From assembly GCF_006716565.1 (NCBI RefSeq), contig NZ_VFPG01000001.1:868001-932000 (forward strand): a DNA stretch of 64,000 nucleotides, read 5' to 3'. The DNA comes from Nocardia bhagyanarayanae. GTDB taxonomy: Bacteria > Actinomycetota > Actinomycetes > Mycobacteriales > Mycobacteriaceae. A model generated the notes under the pieces. That model ran no database searches and was not told the origin of the DNA. It was given only the letters and a program-made list of their open reading frames with translations. The position numbers and the translations under genes are program-made. Shown here piece by piece: positions 2,006-62,100 of this stretch (its first letter is position 1; each line of letters starts with the position of its first letter).

Positions 2006-3209
2006 ATTGCGCGTGCAGTGCTGTGTCGTCGGCGGCGGACCTGCCGGGTTGATGCTCGGCACCCTGCTCGCTCGGCAAGGGGTCGAGGTCGCGGTGCTGG
2101 AGAAGCACGCCGACTTCCTCCGGGATTTCCGCGGCGACACGATCCACCCCTCGACGCAGGAACTCATCCACGAACTGGGCTGGCTCGAGGAGTTCCACCG
2201 GCTTCCGCACACCAAGATGGACCGGGTCACCGTCGCGGTCGGCGGCACTCCGGTGACGTTCGCCGACTTCCGGAAACTGCCGGTTCGCAGTCCCTACATC
2301 GCCTTCATGCCGCAGTGGGAGTTCCTCGACTTCCTGGCGACCAAGGCCGCGGGCTTCCCCGGTTTCACACTGTTGCGGCGCACCGAAGCCAGCGATCTGC
2401 TCATCGACGAGGGTCGCGTCGTCGGCGTCCGGGCGAACACGGAGACCGAGATCATCGAGATCCGCGCCGACCTCGTCGTCGCCGCGGATGGCCGGCACTC
2501 GCGCCTGCGCGACCGAGCGGGCCTGCGCGCCGTCGCGGGTTCACCGCCCATGGACGTGCTGTGGTTCCGGTTGTCCCGCAGAGCCACCGATCACGTGGAA
2601 TTCTTCCAAGGCGGCAAAGGAGCATTGGTCGCCATCGACCGGGGCGACTACTGGCAGATCGCCTACACCATTCCCACGAATACCTACCCCGAACTCCGGG
2701 CGCTCGGAATCGGCGAGTTGCGGCACCGAATCAGCGCACTCGCGCCCGCGTTGGCGGACCGGGTAGACGAACTCGGCACCTGGGACGATGTCCATCAACT
2801 CACCGTCCGGGTCGACCGACTCGACACCTGGCACCGCCCCGGCCTGCTGTGCATCGGCGACGCGGCACACGCCATGTCCCCAGCAGGCGGGGTCGGAATC
2901 AACCTGGCCATCCAGGACGCGGTCGCGACCGCGAACATCCTCGGCCCGAAACTACTGGGCCACAGCCTGTCCGACGACGATCTCGCCGGCGTCCAAGCTC
3001 GCCGCGAGCTACCGGTGAAACTCACCCAACTGTTCCAGCTGGCCATCCTTCGCGACCTCTACCCCAAGAGTCTCGGCGACGACACCACAGCCCATGTGCC
3101 CCCGATCTTCCGAGTGTTCCGAGCACTACCGATTCTGCGCCGCGCCACCGGACGATTCATCGGACTCGGCATCCGTCCCGAACATATCGCCGACAAAGTG
3201 GAGCCGTGA
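1992..3209 (+). CDS. FAD-dependent aromatic-type monooxygenase (PheA/TfdB class)
   Basis: A 405-aa class A flavoprotein monooxygenase. Three family motifs are visible: the N-terminal GGGPAGLMLG dinucleotide fold, a DG-type motif AADGRHSRLRD (about residue 160), and the FAD-ribityl motif CIGDAAHAMSPAGGVGIN (about residue 290). Such enzymes use NAD(P)H and O2 to hydroxylate or epoxidise aromatic or polyketide-like substrates. The start at ATG 1992 overlaps the tetR stop and is preceded by GGAAGGGAACG. The next small gene starts inside its stop codon. The substrate is unknown, though a drug- or xenobiotic-modifying role fits the TetR pairing. Confidence 0.85.
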   Translation: MQVRELRVQCCVVGGGPAGLMLGTLLARQGVEVAVLEKHADFLRDFRGDTIHPSTQELIHELGWLEEFHRLPHTKMDRVTVAVGGTPVTFADFRKLPVRSPYIAFMPQWEFLDFLATKAAGFPGFTLLRRTEASDLLIDEGRVVGVRANTETEIIEIRADLVVAADGRHSRLRDRAGLRAVAGSPPMDVLWFRLSRRATDHVEFFQGGKGALVAIDRGDYWQIAYTIPTNTYPELRALGIGELRHRISALAPALADRVDELGTWDDVHQLTVRVDRLDTWHRPGLLCIGDAAHAMSPAGGVGINLAIQDAVATANILGPKLLGHSLSDDDLAGVQARRELPVKLTQLFQLAILRDLYPKSLGDDTTAHVPPIFRVFRALPILRRATGRFIGLGIRPEHIADKVEP

Positions 3210-3613
3210 TGGAGTCGGTGCTGGAGGAGATCCGACGGTTTCTTCCGCTCGGTATCACCGCCGTTGAAGCAGATACTGATGGTATTTGCCTTCAGGGGGA
3301 TCGTTGGCGACTGCGCATCAATACGAGCTGGCGGGTGACCGAAGGCGCCGAGATCATCGTTTCACCGGGTCTTGCGAGGGAGGGATCGTCACACTACGGC
3401 CTGGAAGATCTCATAGGCGATGAAGTGGTCGACGTCGGTCTCCAAGGCGTTCGATTCGCACGGGACTTGTACGTGGTAACCCGCGAAGGACGAATCCTAA
3501 AAATCTTCAGCGACTTCCCATACGGTGAGTGGCTCTTATCGGTCTCGCGTCTGGGTGATGAACGGAGAATCCCGATCTTCGATCTCGAAGGCCCGGTTTC
3601 CGACGTTACCTAG
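3209..3613 (+). CDS. Small conserved-looking protein of unknown function (134 aa)
   Basis: Starts at ATG 3209 inside the stop of the monooxygenase (TGATG), so it is translationally coupled to it. The protein is acidic, with no signal peptide or membrane segment, and is rich in short beta-strand-like stretches (GDRWRLRINTSWRV; REGRILKIFSD). The pattern loosely recalls small DUF6188-type proteins, but I cannot confirm that. Its base composition is visibly less GC-rich than its neighbours, especially at third positions, hinting at separate acquisition. Function not recognised. Confidence 0.65.
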   Translation: MESVLEEIRRFLPLGITAVEADTDGICLQGDRWRLRINTSWRVTEGAEIIVSPGLAREGSSHYGLEDLIGDEVVDVGLQGVRFARDLYVVTREGRILKIFSDFPYGEWLLSVSRLGDERRIPIFDLEGPVSDVT

Positions 3614-3697
3614 ACGTCGCGCCGGCGATGCCGAGCCCGAACAAGTCGCAGGCGCGTCGAACGTCACCACCGGTGGCGTGCGGCTCGTCGAGGAAAT

Positions 3698-4627
3698 TCA
3701 CACCGCGATCACCGCGGGCTGGGTTGGGTTGCGGCGGTAGTGGCCTGGGGCCTGGCCGTATTCGCGTTTGAAGGCCTTGGCGAAGGCGAATTCGGAGGTG
3801 TAGCCGACTTTTCGGGCGATGGTGTGCAGGGGGGCGTCGGTGTCGCGGAGAAGGCGGGCGGCGGTGAGGAGGCGCCAGCGGGTGACGTAGGAGAGCGGGG
3901 GTTCGCCGACGGTGGCGGTGAAGCGGCGGGCCAGGGTGGCGCGGGAGACGCCGGCGATGTCGCTGAGGTCGGGGACGGTCCAGGCACGAGCCGGGTCTTC
4001 GTGGACGGCGCGCAGGGCGGCGGCGACGGCGGGGTCGGCGAACGCGCCGGCCCAGCCGGTGGGGTGGGCGTCGGCCTGTTCGTCGAACCAGGCGCGCAGG
4101 ATGAACAGCAGCATGGTCTCCAGCAGCGCGGGCACCGCGGCGTCGCTGCCCTGGCTCGGTTCGGCGATCTCGGCGGCAAGCAGATCCACCGCACCGCGCA
4201 GCGCGGGATGACGGCCGGGGCGGGCGGGCAGGTGGATGAACTCCGGCAGTTCGTCGAGCAGCGGGTGGGAGCGCGCTCGACCCAGTTCGTATGCGCCGCA
4301 GAGTAGTTCGGTGCGCACCCCGGGCCCGACGATCTCCCGCGGCTCACCGGGCCGGGCGGTTTCGGTCACCGCGCTCTCGAGGTTGTCGACCAGGTCGTGA
4401 TCGGCGCCGCGCGGCATGAAAAGCACATCGCCGACTCCGAGCGCGATCGGCTCACCTTCCGGCGGAACGACCCAGCAAGATCCGCGCAGCACGACGTGGA
4501 ACCCCGCTCCGGGCACGACCGGATAGCGGCGACCCCACGGCGCGTGCCTGATGAACAAGCCGGACGCCGGATTGCCGGTGCGAATGGCCGCTATGGTCTC
4601 GCTGAGTATGTCCACGACAGCAACCAT
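3698..4627 (-). CDS. AraC-family regulator with N-terminal cupin (cupin_6) domain
   Basis: A 309-aa regulator. The N-terminal half is a cupin-like sensor (GDVLFMPRGADH near residue 83). The C-terminal 100 residues form the double helix-turn-helix of AraC/XylS proteins (LSDIAGVSRATLARRF and IARKVGYTSEFAFAKAF, ending in a GHYRR-like segment). ATG 4627 is used; an in-frame GTG at 4615 gives the start VDILSETIAAIR, which is also typical of this family. It diverges from an NAD(P)-binding oxidoreductase gene that it may control. Palindromes lie in the 84-bp gap. Confidence 0.85.
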   Translation of the reverse strand: MVAVVDILSETIAAIRTGNPASGLFIRHAPWGRRYPVVPGAGFHVVLRGSCWVVPPEGEPIALGVGDVLFMPRGADHDLVDNLESAVTETARPGEPREIVGPGVRTELLCGAYELGRARSHPLLDELPEFIHLPARPGRHPALRGAVDLLAAEIAEPSQGSDAAVPALLETMLLFILRAWFDEQADAHPTGWAGAFADPAVAAALRAVHEDPARAWTVPDLSDIAGVSRATLARRFTATVGEPPLSYVTRWRLLTAARLLRDTDAPLHTIARKVGYTSEFAFAKAFKREYGQAPGHYRRNPTQPAVIAV

Positions 4628-5787: not shown

Positions 5788-6198
5788 ATGACCGACGACC
5801 GGCCCGCACTCGCCATCGCCCTGGATCTGCAACCGCATCCCGAGGGCGGGTGGTATCGCCAAACTTGGCGCAGCCCTGTGGAATTCACGCCCGAGGGCTA
5901 TCCGGGGACGCGCGCGGCGGCGACGGCGATCCACTTTCTGCTGATGCCGGGTGAGCGCTCGGCCCCGCACACGGTGCGGTCGGACGAGCTGTGGCTCTGG
6001 CACCGCGGCGGACCGCTCGCGCTCGACATCGGCGGCGAGGAGATCGTCCTCGGGCCCGATGTCGAGCGCGGTCAGCTGTTGCAGGCCGTGGTCCCCGGCG
6101 GTGTCAGCCAGGCCGCGCGGCCGCTCGGCAACGAGTACGTCCTGGTGAGCTGCATCGTCGCCCCGGGCTTCGACTTCGCGGACTTCCGGCTCGACTGA
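5788..6198 (+). CDS. DUF985/cupin_5 family protein
   Basis: A 136-aa single-domain cupin. The N-terminal LQPHPEGGWYRQTWRS and the central HFLLMPGERSAPHTVRSDELW are hallmarks of the DUF985 family, with the cupin metal or ligand histidines visible. Length matches the family. Members are small cytosolic beta-barrels of uncertain enzymatic role. It follows the oxidoreductase by 32 bp and may share its transcript. Confidence 0.85.
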   Translation: MTDDRPALAIALDLQPHPEGGWYRQTWRSPVEFTPEGYPGTRAAATAIHFLLMPGERSAPHTVRSDELWLWHRGGPLALDIGGEEIVLGPDVERGQLLQAVVPGGVSQAARPLGNEYVLVSCIVAPGFDFADFRLD

Positions 6199-11577: not shown

Positions 11578-11740
11578 GCGTACCTCCGCCTTCGCTCCGG
11601 CCATGCGCGGACTGAGGACGGACTGCGTCCGGCAGCGCCTGCTATGCGTACCTCCGCATGCGCTCCGGCCGTGCGCGGACTGAAGACGGACTGCGTCCGG
11701 CAGCGCCTGCTACGCGTACCTCCGCATGCGCTGCGGCAGC
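11578..11740. repeat. 68-bp tandem repeat (two full copies and a remnant)
   Basis: The unit begins GCGTACCTCCGC at 11578, 11646 and 11714. Copies 1 and 2 (68 bp each) differ at about five positions. The third copy keeps the first 19 bp and then jumps to the unit's end, as if internally deleted. Each full unit contains GGACG-N5-CGTCC, a small hairpin. The array begins directly after the hsaB stop and ends at the stop of the convergent oxidoreductase gene, so it could act as a terminator or be a replication-slippage product. Confidence 0.85.
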
Positions 11741-57114: not shown

Positions 57115-57813
57115 GTGACTGCCCTGAATGCTGTGACCGCCTCGTCGGGGGCGCGGAAGCCACGTCTCATGGTGACTGTTGCCGCACTCGCCGCGGGCGC
57201 CGCGCTCGCGCTGTCCGGCTGCAGCGCGGGGCAGGTCTCCCAGACCGCGAACCAGGCCCCGGCCATCAACGGCAACAACGCCGAGGTCGAGGACATCTCG
57301 CTGCGCAACGTGCACATCGTGTACCCGTCCGAGGGCTACACCAATGCGCAGGGCGGCAAGGCGCTGATCGCGCTGTCCATCGTGAACAACAGCGAGACCG
57401 TCACCGACGAGCTGACCAGCGTCACCACCGACCTCGGCCAGGTGAAGATCACCCCGCCGTCCGGCGCGTCGTCGGTGAAGCTCGCGCCGCAGCAGACCAT
57501 CGTCGCGGCGGCCACCGAGAAGGGCGGCCAGGGCTCGGCCGGCTCGCACGGCGACGACCACGGCTCGGACAGCCACGGCTCGCAGCCGACCAAGCAGCAG
57601 GCCGCCGACCCCGAGGCCAAGCCGGCCACCATCGAGATCACCGGCCTTTCCAAGGACATCACCCCCGGCCTGACCTACACCGTCTCGTTCAACTTCAAGG
57701 AGAACGGCACCGTGCAGGTCCAGGTGCCGGTCGACGCGGGCACCGAGGCCGAGCGCCACGAGTCCGACAAGTCGGGCCCGGCCGCCGGCGGCGGCCACGG
57801 CGGCGGCCACTGA
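57115..57813 (+). CDS. lpqE: LpqE-like lipoprotein with His-rich segments
   Basis: A 232-aa secreted lipoprotein. The signal peptide ends in lipobox LSGC with Cys36. The mature domain is beta-rich (NVHIVYPSEGYTNAQGGKALIALSIVN split around residue 62-90) and recalls LpqE, which occupies this same position next to carD in mycobacteria. Two His/Gly/Ser-rich stretches, GSHGDDHGSDSHGSQP near 143 and the C-terminal GGGHGGGH, could bind metal ions. Starts at GTG 57115 behind GGAGG. Function is not established. Confidence 0.82.
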   Translation: MTALNAVTASSGARKPRLMVTVAALAAGAALALSGCSAGQVSQTANQAPAINGNNAEVEDISLRNVHIVYPSEGYTNAQGGKALIALSIVNNSETVTDELTSVTTDLGQVKITPPSGASSVKLAPQQTIVAAATEKGGQGSAGSHGDDHGSDSHGSQPTKQQAADPEAKPATIEITGLSKDITPGLTYTVSFNFKENGTVQVQVPVDAGTEAERHESDKSGPAAGGGHGGGH

Positions 57814-57912: not shown

Positions 57913-59313
57913 GTGGCAAAGAACAAGCCGATCTTCCGGTGCTCCGCCTGCTCGCACGAGGTCGCGAAGTGGGTGGGCAAGTGCCCGGACTGCGGGGCGT
58001 GGGGCACGGTCGACGAGGTAGCCGTCTCGGCCGCGTCGGCCGCCGCGCCGGGTAGGCGCGCGATGCTGCCGAGCACCGCGGCGGCCCCGATCTCCACGAT
58101 CGATTCGCAGGTCACCAAGGCCAGGCCGACCGGTGTCGGCGAGCTGGACCGGGTGCTCGGCGGCGGGGTCGTCGCGGGCTCGGTCGTGCTGCTCTCCGGC
58201 GAGCCCGGCGTCGGCAAGTCGACGCTGCTGCTCGAGGTCGCGCACCGGTGGGCCAAGCAGCGCGACGAGAAGGCGCTCTACGTGACCGCGGAGGAGTCCG
58301 CGGGTCAGGTCCGGCTGCGCGCGGATCGCACCGGCGCGGTGCACGAGCGGGTGTACCTGGCGGCGGAGTCGGATCTGTCGATCGTGCTCGGGCATGTCGA
58401 GCAAGTGCGGCCGACGCTGCTCGTCGTCGACTCGGTGCAGACCATGCTCGCGCCGGACGTGGACGGCGTGATCGGCGGCGTCACCCAGGTGCGCGCGGTG
58501 ACGGCGGCGCTCACCTCGCTCGCCAAGGCGAGCGGGATCGCCGTGCTGCTGGTCGGCCACGTCACCAAGGACGGCAACGTGGCGGGCCCGCGCACCCTCG
58601 AACACCTGGTGGACGTGGTGCTGCAGTTCGAGGGCGACAAGAACTCCACGCTGCGCATGGTGCGCGGCATCAAGAACCGGTTCGGCAGCGCCGACGAGGT
58701 GGGCTGTTTCGAGCTGCACGAGGAAGGCATCGCGGGCGTCGACGACCCGTCCGGGCTGTTCCTGCACCACCGCACCGATTCGGTGCCCGGCACGGCGGTC
58801 ACCGTCGCGATGGACGGCAAGCGGCCGCTGGTCGGCGAGGTGCAGGGCCTGACGGTGAAGACCGAGATCCCCGCGCCGCGCCGCGCCGTCAGCGGGCTCG
58901 ACTACAACCGGGTCGCCATGGTGCTCGCGGTGTTGCAGAGCCGCGGCCGGGTCTTCCTCGGCAAGCACGACGTCTACGCGGCGACGGTCGGCGGCATGCG
59001 GCTCGTCGAGCCCGCGGCGGACCTCGCCATCGCGCTCGCCATCGCCAGCGCCGAATCCGACACCGCGCTCCCGCCCGGCTGGGTGATACTCGGCGAGGTC
59101 GGCCTGGCGGGCGAGGTGCGGAAGGTGACCGGCGTGGCACGTAGGCTGGCCGAAGCACAGCGGCTCGGCTTCACCACCGCGCTGGTGCCGCCGGGGCTGG
59201 ATCGAGTGAAGGGCGGGGGCATGAAGATTCACGAGGTGACCGACGTCGGTTCCGCGCTGCGGATCAGCGGCCTGCGCGCGCGGCGGGCGGCGCGGAACGA
59301 GGCGGCCGAGTGA
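57913..59313 (+). CDS. radA: DNA repair protein RadA (Sms)
   Basis: A 466-aa RadA helicase-like protein. It has an N-terminal zinc finger C10-x2-C13...C24-x2-C27, a RecA-like core with Walker [11 protein letters not shown] (about 95-104), the RadA-specific KNRFG motif in [13 protein letters not shown], and a C-terminal Lon-protease-like domain ([21 protein letters not shown]). It promotes branch migration in recombination. Starts at GTG 57913. Its stop overlaps the disA GTG (GTGA). Confidence 0.95.
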
Positions 59314-60683
59314 TACCGGGGCGGTGGGCGGCGTATCTGCTCGGCAGACCGGCTCCCGTCGCGCCATGTCCTCCGGTCCCGACGACGACCGCGCGGAACC
59401 GGCTGCCCGAGATCGTCACCCGGCTGGCTCCCGGCACGCCGCTGCGGGACGGACTGGAACGCATCCAGCGGGGTCGCACCGGCGGCCTGATCGTGCTCGG
59501 CTACGACGCGGATGTCGAGCGAATCTGCGACGGCGGATTCGAGCTGGACGTCGAGTTCGCGCCTACCCGGCTGCGCGAGCTGTCGAAGATGGACGGCGCG
59601 GTCGTGCTCTCCACCGACGGCTCCCGCATCCTGCGCGCCAACGTGCACCTGGTGCCCGATCCGAACCTGCCGAGCGCCGAATCCGGCACCAGGCACCGGG
59701 CCGCCGAGCGGACCGCCGCCCAGACCGGCTACCCGGTGATCGCGGTGAGCAAGTCGATGCGCACGGTGACGCTCTACATCGACGAGGTCCGCCACCTGGT
59801 CGAACCGTCGGCCACCATCCTGGCCAGGGCGAACCAGGCGCTCGGCACGTTGGAGCGCTACAAGGCGCGGCTGGATCAGGTGTGCGAGCAGCTGTCGGAG
59901 AGCGAGCTCGAGGACGTCGTCACCCTGCGCGACGCGCTGTCGGCGGCCCAGCGCCTGGAACTCGTCCGGCGTCTTGCCAAGGAGATCGAGCAGAGCGTGC
60001 TGGAACTCGGCGCCGACGGTCGCCAGCTCGCGCTGCAACTGGAGGATCTGGTCGGCGACAGCGCCTGGCTGCGCGAGCTGCTCATCCGTGACTACCTCGC
60101 CTGCGAGCCGGCAGGGGCAGGTGTGCCTGCTCATGATGCGGTTCTCCGCACGAGTACCCCGCAACGGGAGAACACGGCTTGCTCGTGTGCCGACCACGGA
60201 CATGTGTATGTGTCAGAGCTGGAGCGCGCGATGACGGGGGCAGGTGTGCCTCCTCATGGTGTGGATCTCCGTACGAGTACCCCGCAACGGGAGAACACGG
60301 CATGCTCGTGTGCCGGCCACGGACATGTGTATGTGTCAGAGGTGGAGCGGGCGATGGCCGGGCTGGACTCGCTCAGCGACGGCGAACTGCTCGATCTCAC
60401 CAATCTGGCTGCGCCGCTCGGTTATCCGGGCACCATCGAGGCGCTGGACCTGCCGATGCGCCCGCGGGGCTACCGGGTGCTCACCCGGATACCCAGGCTG
60501 CGCTTCACCCACATCGAATCGCTGGTCGACTCGTTCGGCTCGCTCCAGGGACTGCTGGTCGCGACAACGAGCGATCTGCAGGCCGTCGACGGCATCGGAG
60601 TGCCGAGAGCGCGGCAGATCCGCGACGGGCTGACCCGCCTCGCGGAAGCGGGCGCGGACAACCCGTTCGAGCGGGAACGATGA
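59310..60683 (+). CDS. disA: DNA integrity scanning diadenylate cyclase DisA, with an in-frame tandem insertion
   Basis: A 457-aa DisA that makes c-di-AMP. The cyclase domain has DGA at 95-97 and RHR at 128-130, both intact; the C-terminal helix-hairpin-helix domain ends [22 protein letters not shown]. Residues 269-350 are two tandem 41-residue repeats (see repeat entry) inserted after RDYLACEPA and absent from DisA as I know it (about 358 aa in M. tuberculosis). Without them it would be 375 aa. The frame stays open, so a longer protein is expected. The GTG start lies in the radA stop and adds about 25 residues at the N-terminus. Confidence 0.9.
60114..60359 (+). repeat. 123-bp in-frame tandem duplication inside disA
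   Basis: Two adjacent 123-bp copies (60114-60236 and 60237-60359) match at 112 positions. Each encodes 41 residues, beginning GAGVP and containing [14 protein letters not shown] and HGHVYVSE. Third codon positions are much richer in A/T (GGT, CCT, CAT, GAT, TAT, TCA) than in the rest of disA. Copy 1 contains a possible stem GTTCTCC (60141-60147) with GGAGAAC (60167-60173). There are only two copies and no spacers, so it is not a CRISPR. The origin is unknown. Confidence 0.9.
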
Positions 60684-60689
60684 AGCGGC

Positions 60690-61352
60690 TCAGGCGATGT
60701 TGAACGGCTCGGCCGCGCTACGCACCGAACCGAGTTGCGCGACAACCGAATACGCGCCCGGCGGCACCGGAACCCGCTCACCGGCGCAGTTCGGCTGGGA
60801 TGTCGAGCCCGACCAGGTGACCTGGAAAGCTGCCTGTTCACCGCGATTCAGATTGCGCACGTCGGGCTGACCGTCCGGATAGCAGTCGGTGCTCGACCAC
60901 AGTTTCCGGGTGCCGTCGAGGGTGTAGACCGAGATCTGCTGCAACCCGGAACCGACGTCGCGGGAGCAGGTCACCGAGGAGATGTTGGTGATCACGATGC
61001 CGAAAACCGGCTGCTCGCCCGCCTTGTAGGTGGGTTGCTCGACGGTCACCTTCACCGCGAGCGACTGATCGGGGCACTGCCCGGCCGCCACGGGAGCCGG
61101 ACTGGCCGCCGGGGTCACCGAAGGTTTGGGCGCGTCCGCGCTGATGGAGGACTTCGGCGCGTCACCCGACTTCTTCACCGACGAAGTCGAACTCGACGCG
61201 GCCACCTTGGCGTCACCGGGTGAGCCGCCACCGCGCACGACCATCACCACCAGCCAAATCACCAGCGCGAGCGCCACGACCAGGATTCCGATGGCGAAAA
61301 CGCGACGTCGCCAGTAGATCTCCGGAGGCAGCGGTCCAGTCGGTTCCAGCAC
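60690..61352 (-). CDS. Membrane-anchored extracellular protein (Rv3587c-like)
   Basis: A 220-aa protein with a short cytosolic N-terminus, one membrane helix (VFAIGILVVALALVIWLVVM, residues 18-37), a Ser/Ala/Pro-rich linker and an extracellular beta-sandwich-like domain with several cysteines (GQCPDQSLAVKV, VTCSRDVG, TDCYPDG, NCAGERVPVPPG), probably disulfide-bonded. Its position between disA and canB matches the conserved hypothetical of mycobacteria. Starts at GTG 61352. Function unknown. Confidence 0.82.
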   Translation of the reverse strand: MLEPTGPLPPEIYWRRRVFAIGILVVALALVIWLVVMVVRGGGSPGDAKVAASSSTSSVKKSGDAPKSSISADAPKPSVTPAASPAPVAAGQCPDQSLAVKVTVEQPTYKAGEQPVFGIVITNISSVTCSRDVGSGLQQISVYTLDGTRKLWSSTDCYPDGQPDVRNLNRGEQAAFQVTWSGSTSQPNCAGERVPVPPGAYSVVAQLGSVRSAAEPFNIA

Positions 61353-61476
61353 GATTCAAACTTACGGGCAGCACCGGGCGCGGTGTCTCAGGACCTCGGC
61401 GTGTCGGACTGGACGACGCCGCAGTGCCGGGTGCTGTGCACCCGGCACGCTGGGGAAACTCCGCTCCGAGAACGGG

Positions 61477-62100
61477 TCAGACGACCTCACCGATGTTGCC
61501 GACGACACGGTGCAGCTTGACCTGGCCTTCGGCCAGTTTGTACGTCACGCTGGCAATGGCCAGCTCGCCGGTCGCGACCCGCTGGGAAATGATCATCGAC
61601 CGCTGCATCAGCAGCCTGCTGGTCTCCACGACATGCCTGGCCTCCATCTCGTCCACGCCGGAGAGACCCTCGCGGCGGCCGATCAGGATGGAGGGCGTCA
61701 CCTTTTCGACGACGCTGCGGATGAACCCACCGGGTACCTCACCGCCGTCGAGCGCGTCGATGGTCGCCTTCACCGCGCCGCAGCTGTCGTGTCCGAGCAC
61801 CACGATCAGCGGAACGCTCAACACGTGCACGCCGTACTCGATCGAACCGAGCACCGAGCTGTCGACCACGTGGCCCGCGGTGCGCACTACGAACATGTCG
61901 CCGAGGCCTTGATCGAAGATCAATTCCGCCGCCACGCGCGAGTCGCCGCACCCGAAGACGATGGCCGAAGGATGCTGACCGCCGACGAGCTTCGCCCGGT
62001 CGGCGGCACCCTGACTAGGATGCAAAAGCGTGCCGTTGACGAAACGCTCGTTGCCCTCGCGGAGGGATTTCCAGGCGCTGATCGGGTTTGAATCAGACAT
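61477..62100 (-). CDS. canB: Beta-class carbonic anhydrase (CanB-like)
   Basis: A 207-aa beta-carbonic anhydrase interconverting CO2 and bicarbonate. Zinc ligands are C51, H104 and C107 with the Asp53-Arg55 dyad (FGCGDSRVAAE; VLGHDSCGAV). ATG 62100 gives MSDSNPISAWKSL, colinear with M. tuberculosis Rv3588c (also 207 aa); an ATG at 62109 would add three residues. It diverges from mutY. Confidence 0.93.
   Translation of the reverse strand: MSDSNPISAWKSLREGNERFVNGTLLHPSQGAADRAKLVGGQHPSAIVFGCGDSRVAAELIFDQGLGDMFVVRTAGHVVDSSVLGSIEYGVHVLSVPLIVVLGHDSCGAVKATIDALDGGEVPGGFIRSVVEKVTPSILIGRREGLSGVDEMEARHVVETSRLLMQRSMIISQRVATGELAIASVTYKLAEGQVKLHRVVGNIGEVV

Follow-up and report, generated by a model that had tools for sequence, protein, structure and literature searches.

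A dispersed repeat of approximately 100 bp that probably entered the diadenylate cyclase gene disA of Nocardia bhagyanarayanae in frame and subsequently varied in tandem copy number

In Nocardia bhagyanarayanae, disA, the gene for the DNA integrity scanning diadenylate cyclase, contains a tandemly duplicated coding segment, which raises the questions of where the segment came from, how it was accommodated in the gene, and whether it matters to the protein. The gene is located in a window of 64,000 nucleotides (the whole stretch of DNA analyzed), where it follows a gene at 57913-59313 that is RadA-like, RadA being a presumed name. As an open reading frame (ORF), disA starts from GTG (Table 1), and the entry in the protein database (P0002) starts later and has 426 aa. 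Pfam detected DAC and DisA-linker above the cut-off and HHH_2 below it (20.1 of 27 bits), and the PDB matches to the product are the DisA chains 7y0d, which we take to be M. smegmatis DisA, and 9y4s; spine and HhH are used here as assumed names for parts of DisA. Direct comparison of 60114-60236 with 60237-60359 revealed 112 identical positions out of 123, in frame, and TRF called the same array (60114-60356, period 123, 92%), confirming the in-frame 123-bp tandem duplication described in an earlier note on this DNA. The encoded peptides are GAGVPAHD...ERAMT (copy 1) and GAGVPPHG...ERAMA (copy 2). When every start position in the rest of the window was tried, the best adjacent 123-nt stretches were identical at only 64/123 positions. 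The G/C content at third codon positions (GC3) is 0.54 in the two units vs. 0.88 in the counted remainder of disA, in agreement with the previously noted poverty of the units in G/C at these positions. An assembly artefact was rejected as the source of the duplication because 11 positions distinguish the copies and the insert recurs in proteins of other strains. Elsewhere in the window, the 57115-57813 ORF ends 3′ in a perfect 12-bp tandem repeat (CGGCGGCGGCCA) at 57786-57810, which encodes its Gly/His-rich tail.

Table 1. Features of disA and its insert, in window coordinates (C1, contig coordinates, from which the window is offset by 868000; R1, the sequence profile described in the text)
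Feature	Position	Strand	Details
disA, DNA integrity scanning diadenylate cyclase	59310..60683	+	457-aa ORF from GTG; Pfam; PDB chains
Pfam DisA-linker match	59802..60101	+	residues 165-264, profile 2-101 of 142; ends just ahead of insert
Repeat unit 1, ~100-bp core of dispersed family, within disA	60113..60209	+	R1 match C1:928113-928209, E 3.6e-24
disA-like stretch (LERAM), between units	60220..60236	+	stretches after copies 1 and 2 compared; alignment with G084, G083, and N. lijiangensis
Repeat unit 2, same dispersed family, tandem to unit 1 in disA	60235..60332	+	R1 match C1:928235-928332, E 1.4e-23
C-terminal part, residues 344-448	60339..60653	+	matches 7y0d residues 262-366; in frame beyond insert

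Residues 17-254 of 7y0d match the product of disA up to residue 265, and the PDB match places the insert between residues 254 and 262 of 7y0d. Together with the Pfam match, this locates the insert at the junction between the linker/spine and the HhH part, where the earlier note had put it (between the central helical domain and the C-terminal HhH). Relatives were examined through a search for DisA proteins in which 8000 candidates were scored, 120 of 7527 were listed, and 13 of the 120 were aligned (P0001-P0013). Among the matches listed, four units are found in P0001 and two in P0004, both named N. amikacinitolerans, two each in N. bhagyanarayanae and Nocardia sp. NPDC050713, one in P0005 (named N. 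lijiangensis), and none in P0006-P0013. P0001 and P0004 are alike in 347/349 columns outside the insert, and P0005 may represent a different species because merely 331/349 columns agree with P0009 (N. lijiangensis). The nearest insert-free sisters, P0006-P0009, are 361-382 aa long. When 24 actinobacterial DisA proteins from named genomes were aligned, 22 lacked the insert, the exceptions being those of N. bhagyanarayanae and N. amikacinitolerans. In the DisA protein tree, from which P0002 was left out as the N. bhagyanarayanae gene itself, a single clade of insert-bearing proteins was rejected (AU p 0.004), and thus the insert was gained more than once, lost, or exchanged. A search with the insert region returned five proteins, all of them DisA (8000 candidates scored), and none of 25 candidate proteins similar in length to the insert matched its peptide; on these two results, the idea that other proteins use the insert peptide as a domain was rejected.

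The origin of the segment is illuminated by its occurrence elsewhere in the genome. A search with the 123-bp unit in the host and in other Nocardia, which the earlier note had suggested, revealed a dispersed family, for which a sequence-only profile (R1) was built from 30 copies of N. bhagyanarayanae and N. amikacinitolerans NBRC 108937 (G084). With R1 (E ≤ 0.05), the N. bhagyanarayanae genome contains 25 copies at 13 sites including disA, all on contig C1 and none on C2, i.e., 23 further copies at 12 sites beyond disA, and each site holds one to five units. The repeat ends are GGCRGGTGTRCCTGC...CAAGTGCACCTGCC. The unit is not confined to this species, and its copy number differs among relatives: under filters stricter than those for the N. 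bhagyanarayanae genome, a search of 150 genomes of the genus found 25 copies in N. bhagyanarayanae, 20 in G084 (one being a 46-nt fragment), three in N. lijiangensis NBRC 108240, and two in the relative G083, and nine other genomes gave one weak match each (E 0.0018-0.0083), taken as chance. Under similarly stricter filters, a search of 401 genomes drawn from the family (31 genera; E ≤ 1e-4, 10 candidates scored per genome) gave R1 matches in N. bhagyanarayanae and G084 only; G083 and N. lijiangensis NBRC 108240, absent from these matches, were either not drawn or missed. A search of open-licence papers found no description of such a Nocardia repeat and nothing on miniature inverted-repeats in Nocardia or on an insertion in DisA. 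The two-unit insert is without a match in the phage and plasmid collections, and an origin from phage or plasmid was rejected on the basis of these two collections. A second, larger dispersed family was also observed: a 68-bp tandem repeat of 2.4 copies at 11578-11737, between two apparently convergent ORFs, has 46 matches (E ≤ 0.01) on both contigs of N. bhagyanarayanae.

Genes near the repeats were called with a home-made codon-usage caller rather than taken from published annotation, and by these calls the copies outside disA are intergenic or overlap just the last codons of a gene, as do 12 of the 13 sites in N. bhagyanarayanae. By the same calls, disA is the only intragenic site among 21 distinct sites in four genomes, and is occupied in both N. 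bhagyanarayanae and G084. The 20 distinct non-disA sites comprise 12 of N. bhagyanarayanae, six found only in G084, and two of N. lijiangensis. Under a simple random-position null with distance limits set after the sites had been seen, seven of the 20 start between 35 nt inside and 3 nt past the stop codon of a co-oriented gene (random 8.3%, p 8e-4), and five of the 20 start ≤25 bp from the start of a gene on the 5′ side of the element (random 6.7%, p 0.009). At L126 in N. bhagyanarayanae, a DUF3349 gene has its final three codons and its stop inside the element, and the tail of this gene was not recovered from relatives. At L137 in G084, a short-chain dehydrogenase gene (2914-3732) runs approximately 10 codons and the stop into a repeat copy; in two relatives the dehydrogenase gene stops at the insertion point or close to it, and that of N. 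bhagyanarayanae has a different short tail. The distribution of sites in N. bhagyanarayanae is centred on the origin, with 12/13 sites ≤0.91 Mb from dnaA (C1:1,440,000) in the 7.56-Mb genome (binomial 4e-7, for a radius chosen after looking). Copy number varies at most shared loci: of the six sites common to N. bhagyanarayanae and G084, five differ in the number of full units, and among the five shared intergenic arrays, four vary. At L123, in what is presumably a rpsF-ssb-rpsR-rplI neighbourhood, named from start peptides, a gene is flanked in N. bhagyanarayanae by five units (3817-4341) and, on its other side, by two units of opposite orientation (5814-6044), and in G084 by four units and one unit.

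Insertion is visible in comparisons between genomes. The flanks of six sites found only in N. bhagyanarayanae and six found only in G084 were queried in relatives, and 11 of the 12 were aligned, L126 being omitted because relatives matched its flank only in part. Filled and empty alleles are clearly distinguished in collinear relatives or sister species at nine of the 11; the alleles are ambiguous at L122 and at L139 (a partial copy), and only one flank of L135 was found in G083. Inspected by eye, the 11 filled/empty alignments, with flanks that have partly diverged, revealed no clear target-site duplication. The best 14-nt match between the termini ranges from 6 to 13 with a mode of 9, compared with control means of 7.6 and 7.7, and at least 36 of 49 copies use one register of this match, although the copies are homologous and hence non-independent in both counts. 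The internal inverted repeats that had been reported in copy 1 did not hold up, as the longest perfect one within 60114-60225 is 7 bp and was reached or passed by 51/200 shuffles. A structured RNA was rejected as well: Rfam gave no match up to E 1 in window positions 58500-61500, copy 1 as a single strand folds no more stably than shuffles do (z -1.1), and RNAalifold on 30 copies predicted seven pairs, none with two-sided change.

At disA itself, the genes of G083 and N. lijiangensis NBRC 108240 have no insert, and relative to G083 the region is longer by 219 nt in N. bhagyanarayanae and by 426 nt in G084. Units are spaced by 123 nt in N. bhagyanarayanae and by 96, 111, and 111 nt in G084, all multiples of 3 that keep the frame. 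The LERAM stretch (approximately 17 nt) was apparently co-duplicated with the element, giving a period of 123 vs. 111 for the regular G084 units. Since the N. bhagyanarayanae period is 12 nt longer and holds this disA-like stretch, each array seems to have expanded on its own. A tree of 49 copies unites the six that lie in disA of N. bhagyanarayanae and G084 in one clade (100/99), nearest to which are the intergenic copies L124/L129; within the clade, the copies of the two species group apart with bootstrap values of 99 and 92 but weak SH-aLRT values of 18 and 68.

The encoded peptide changes far more rapidly than the rest of DisA. Between N. bhagyanarayanae and G084, the pieces of disA outside the insert have dN 0.019 and dS 0.16, and dN 0.015 and dS 0.25, the latter piece being the last 282 nt of the C-terminal part, and the units (eight pairs) have dN 0.08-0.19, dS 0.15-0.43, and dN/dS 0.30-0.92. 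These unit pairs are paralogous and their dS lies partly above that of the host gene (0.16-0.25); thus, part of the divergence reflects greater age. All eight between-species dN/dS values are <1, and constraint on the units at the protein level may therefore exist but would be weak; dN/dS is ≥0.85 in four of seven unit pairs within a gene, and differences in the disA frame over all pairs number 45, 75, and 72 at codon positions 1, 2, and 3, with no concentration at the third. Hence, on sequence comparison, the insert looks like a tolerated linker insert. Furthermore, the disA reading frame is open in 29 of 43 non-disA copies, and therefore entry into disA free of stop codons needed little luck. 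The earlier note had also suggested that C-S-C and H-G-H in each unit bind metal. This idea is left without support, because HGH of the N. bhagyanarayanae units is HRH or RRH in G084 and CSC, kept in the six copies of N. bhagyanarayanae and G084, is CAC in one unit of P0001; moreover, the intergenic copies have TGCTCGTG, the DNA encoding CSC, as their consensus too. A metal-binding site was accordingly rejected, HGH not being conserved.

With a probability of approximately 0.8, a clade-restricted, MITE/MIRU-like dispersed repeat of approximately 100 bp integrated in frame in disA and then changed copy number in tandem. The earlier note had likewise proposed entry of a short element into disA, with the frame preserved and a later duplication, and both the family of 25 copies and the insert-free sister proteins favor this account. 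Weighing against it are the lack of a clear target-site duplication, the weak complementarity of the termini, the rejection of a single clade of insert-bearing DisA proteins, and the between-species dN/dS values below 1. A non-autonomous repeat, which would be or would have been mobilized in trans by an enzyme, would have landed in frame where the linker/spine gives way to the C-terminal HhH part, and the number of units would then rise and fall by tandem duplication and deletion through slippage or unequal recombination. The insert is presumably translated and the DisA that carries it presumably still works; it would persist, close to neutral, as the junction tolerates extra residues, and selection would act mainly to keep it open and in frame.

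Several known systems share some of these features. MITEs (miniature inverted-repeat transposable elements) are short, dispersed, and present or absent at a given site between relatives, as is the repeat described here, which may differ in that its terminal inverted repeats look weak and no clear target duplication was seen. The palindromic elements of Rickettsia, to which the earlier note had likened the insert, are palindromic by name. According to PMC10969869, they are short repeats of approximately 150 bp inserted in frame in genes, with 44 insertions in R. conorii. The likeness holds for in-frame entry into a protein-coding gene that is kept in two species (N. bhagyanarayanae and G084; C-terminal dN 0.015 and dS 0.25) and fails for the palindrome, given the copy-1 folding, the seven RNAalifold pairs, and the 7-bp inverted repeat, which amount to no strong palindrome or conserved fold; furthermore, the Nocardia repeat entered one gene rather than many and was amplified in tandem as well. 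MIRUs (mycobacterial interspersed repetitive units) of Mycobacterium tuberculosis are described as units of 40-100 bp that occupy 41 locations, of which 12 show copy-number polymorphism (PMC2734929), the majority lying between genes (PMC3635867). By features rather than by sequence, the Nocardia family resembles them in its short units, many mostly intergenic loci, and tandem arrays that vary in copy number between strains or species, whereas it occurs in four genomes among the 150 searched in the genus, clusters around dnaA, and has one site within an enzyme gene. VNTR4155 (57 bp, 2-21 copies; PMC2704214), which lies in frame within the enzyme gene leuA of the related actinobacterium M. tuberculosis, provides a parallel among coding VNTRs; in disA the spacing is divisible by three and 0, 1, 2, or 4 units occur among the matches listed, and the unit additionally belongs to a dispersed family.

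The copy-number differences admit another reading, namely that the number of repeats is selected as a functional, length-tunable linker that determines how far HhH stands from the cyclase octamer, or how the two are coupled, and serves as a slow genetic dial on c-di-AMP output. Several insert-bearing DisA alleles exist, with copy number differing even between near-identical proteins among the matches listed, and the between-species dN/dS values below 1 are compatible with such selection; a precedent is alpha-IPMS of M. tuberculosis, of which the form with 14 repeats, as opposed to 2, showed no leucine feedback inhibition (PMC2704214). This last result is the reason for keeping the functional reading as a minority view. 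It is nevertheless unlikely, considering the quick change of the peptide, the high within-gene dN/dS values, the lack of a concentration of differences at third codon positions, the sister species without the unit, and the intergenic arrays, which also vary in copy number; according to PMC2704214, moreover, loss of both leuA repeats had seemed without effect in earlier work. The more specific version, in which each unit of approximately 30-40 residues would move the HhH reader away from the cyclase octamer and reset the shut-off of c-di-AMP synthesis by branched DNA, with repeat number under selection, appears slightly more doubtful still.

Two further explanations are very improbable. A purely local duplication of DisA-native sequence, i.e., an ordinary coding VNTR with no dispersed element, agrees with the tandem duplication that did occur and that takes in a short disA-like stretch, but as the sole explanation it is refuted by the copies at the 12 other sites and by the insert-free disA of G083 and N. 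lijiangensis NBRC 108240. Alternatively, the insert could split DisA, with a separate C-terminal HhH polypeptide starting at the internal ATG of ERAM-AGLD, which a purine-rich stretch precedes (computed masses, approximately 11.8 kDa for this fragment and 49.6 kDa for full DisA). GAGGTGGAGCGGGCG-ATG does stand directly after copy 2, and the M is present in N. bhagyanarayanae, P0001, P0003, P0004, and P0005 and missing in the close empty proteins P0006-P0009, but the more distant empty proteins P0010, P0012, and P0013 also have M there, and the long frame is open through all units of N. bhagyanarayanae and G084, which a split does not require.

In-frame integration of a dispersed repeat followed by tandem change in copy number, the preferred account, would combine two known kinds of event, a coding VNTR and the in-frame entry of a dispersed repeat into a gene. 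The repeat family could be a typing marker; its copies cluster near dnaA and frequently border directly on a stop or start codon. Furthermore, the natural Nocardia DisA alleles with 0, 1, 2, and 4 units among the matches listed vary between the cyclase/spine and the DNA-binding part; therefore, they offer a testbed in which the signal from DNA binding to c-di-AMP synthesis can be tested with natural proteins.
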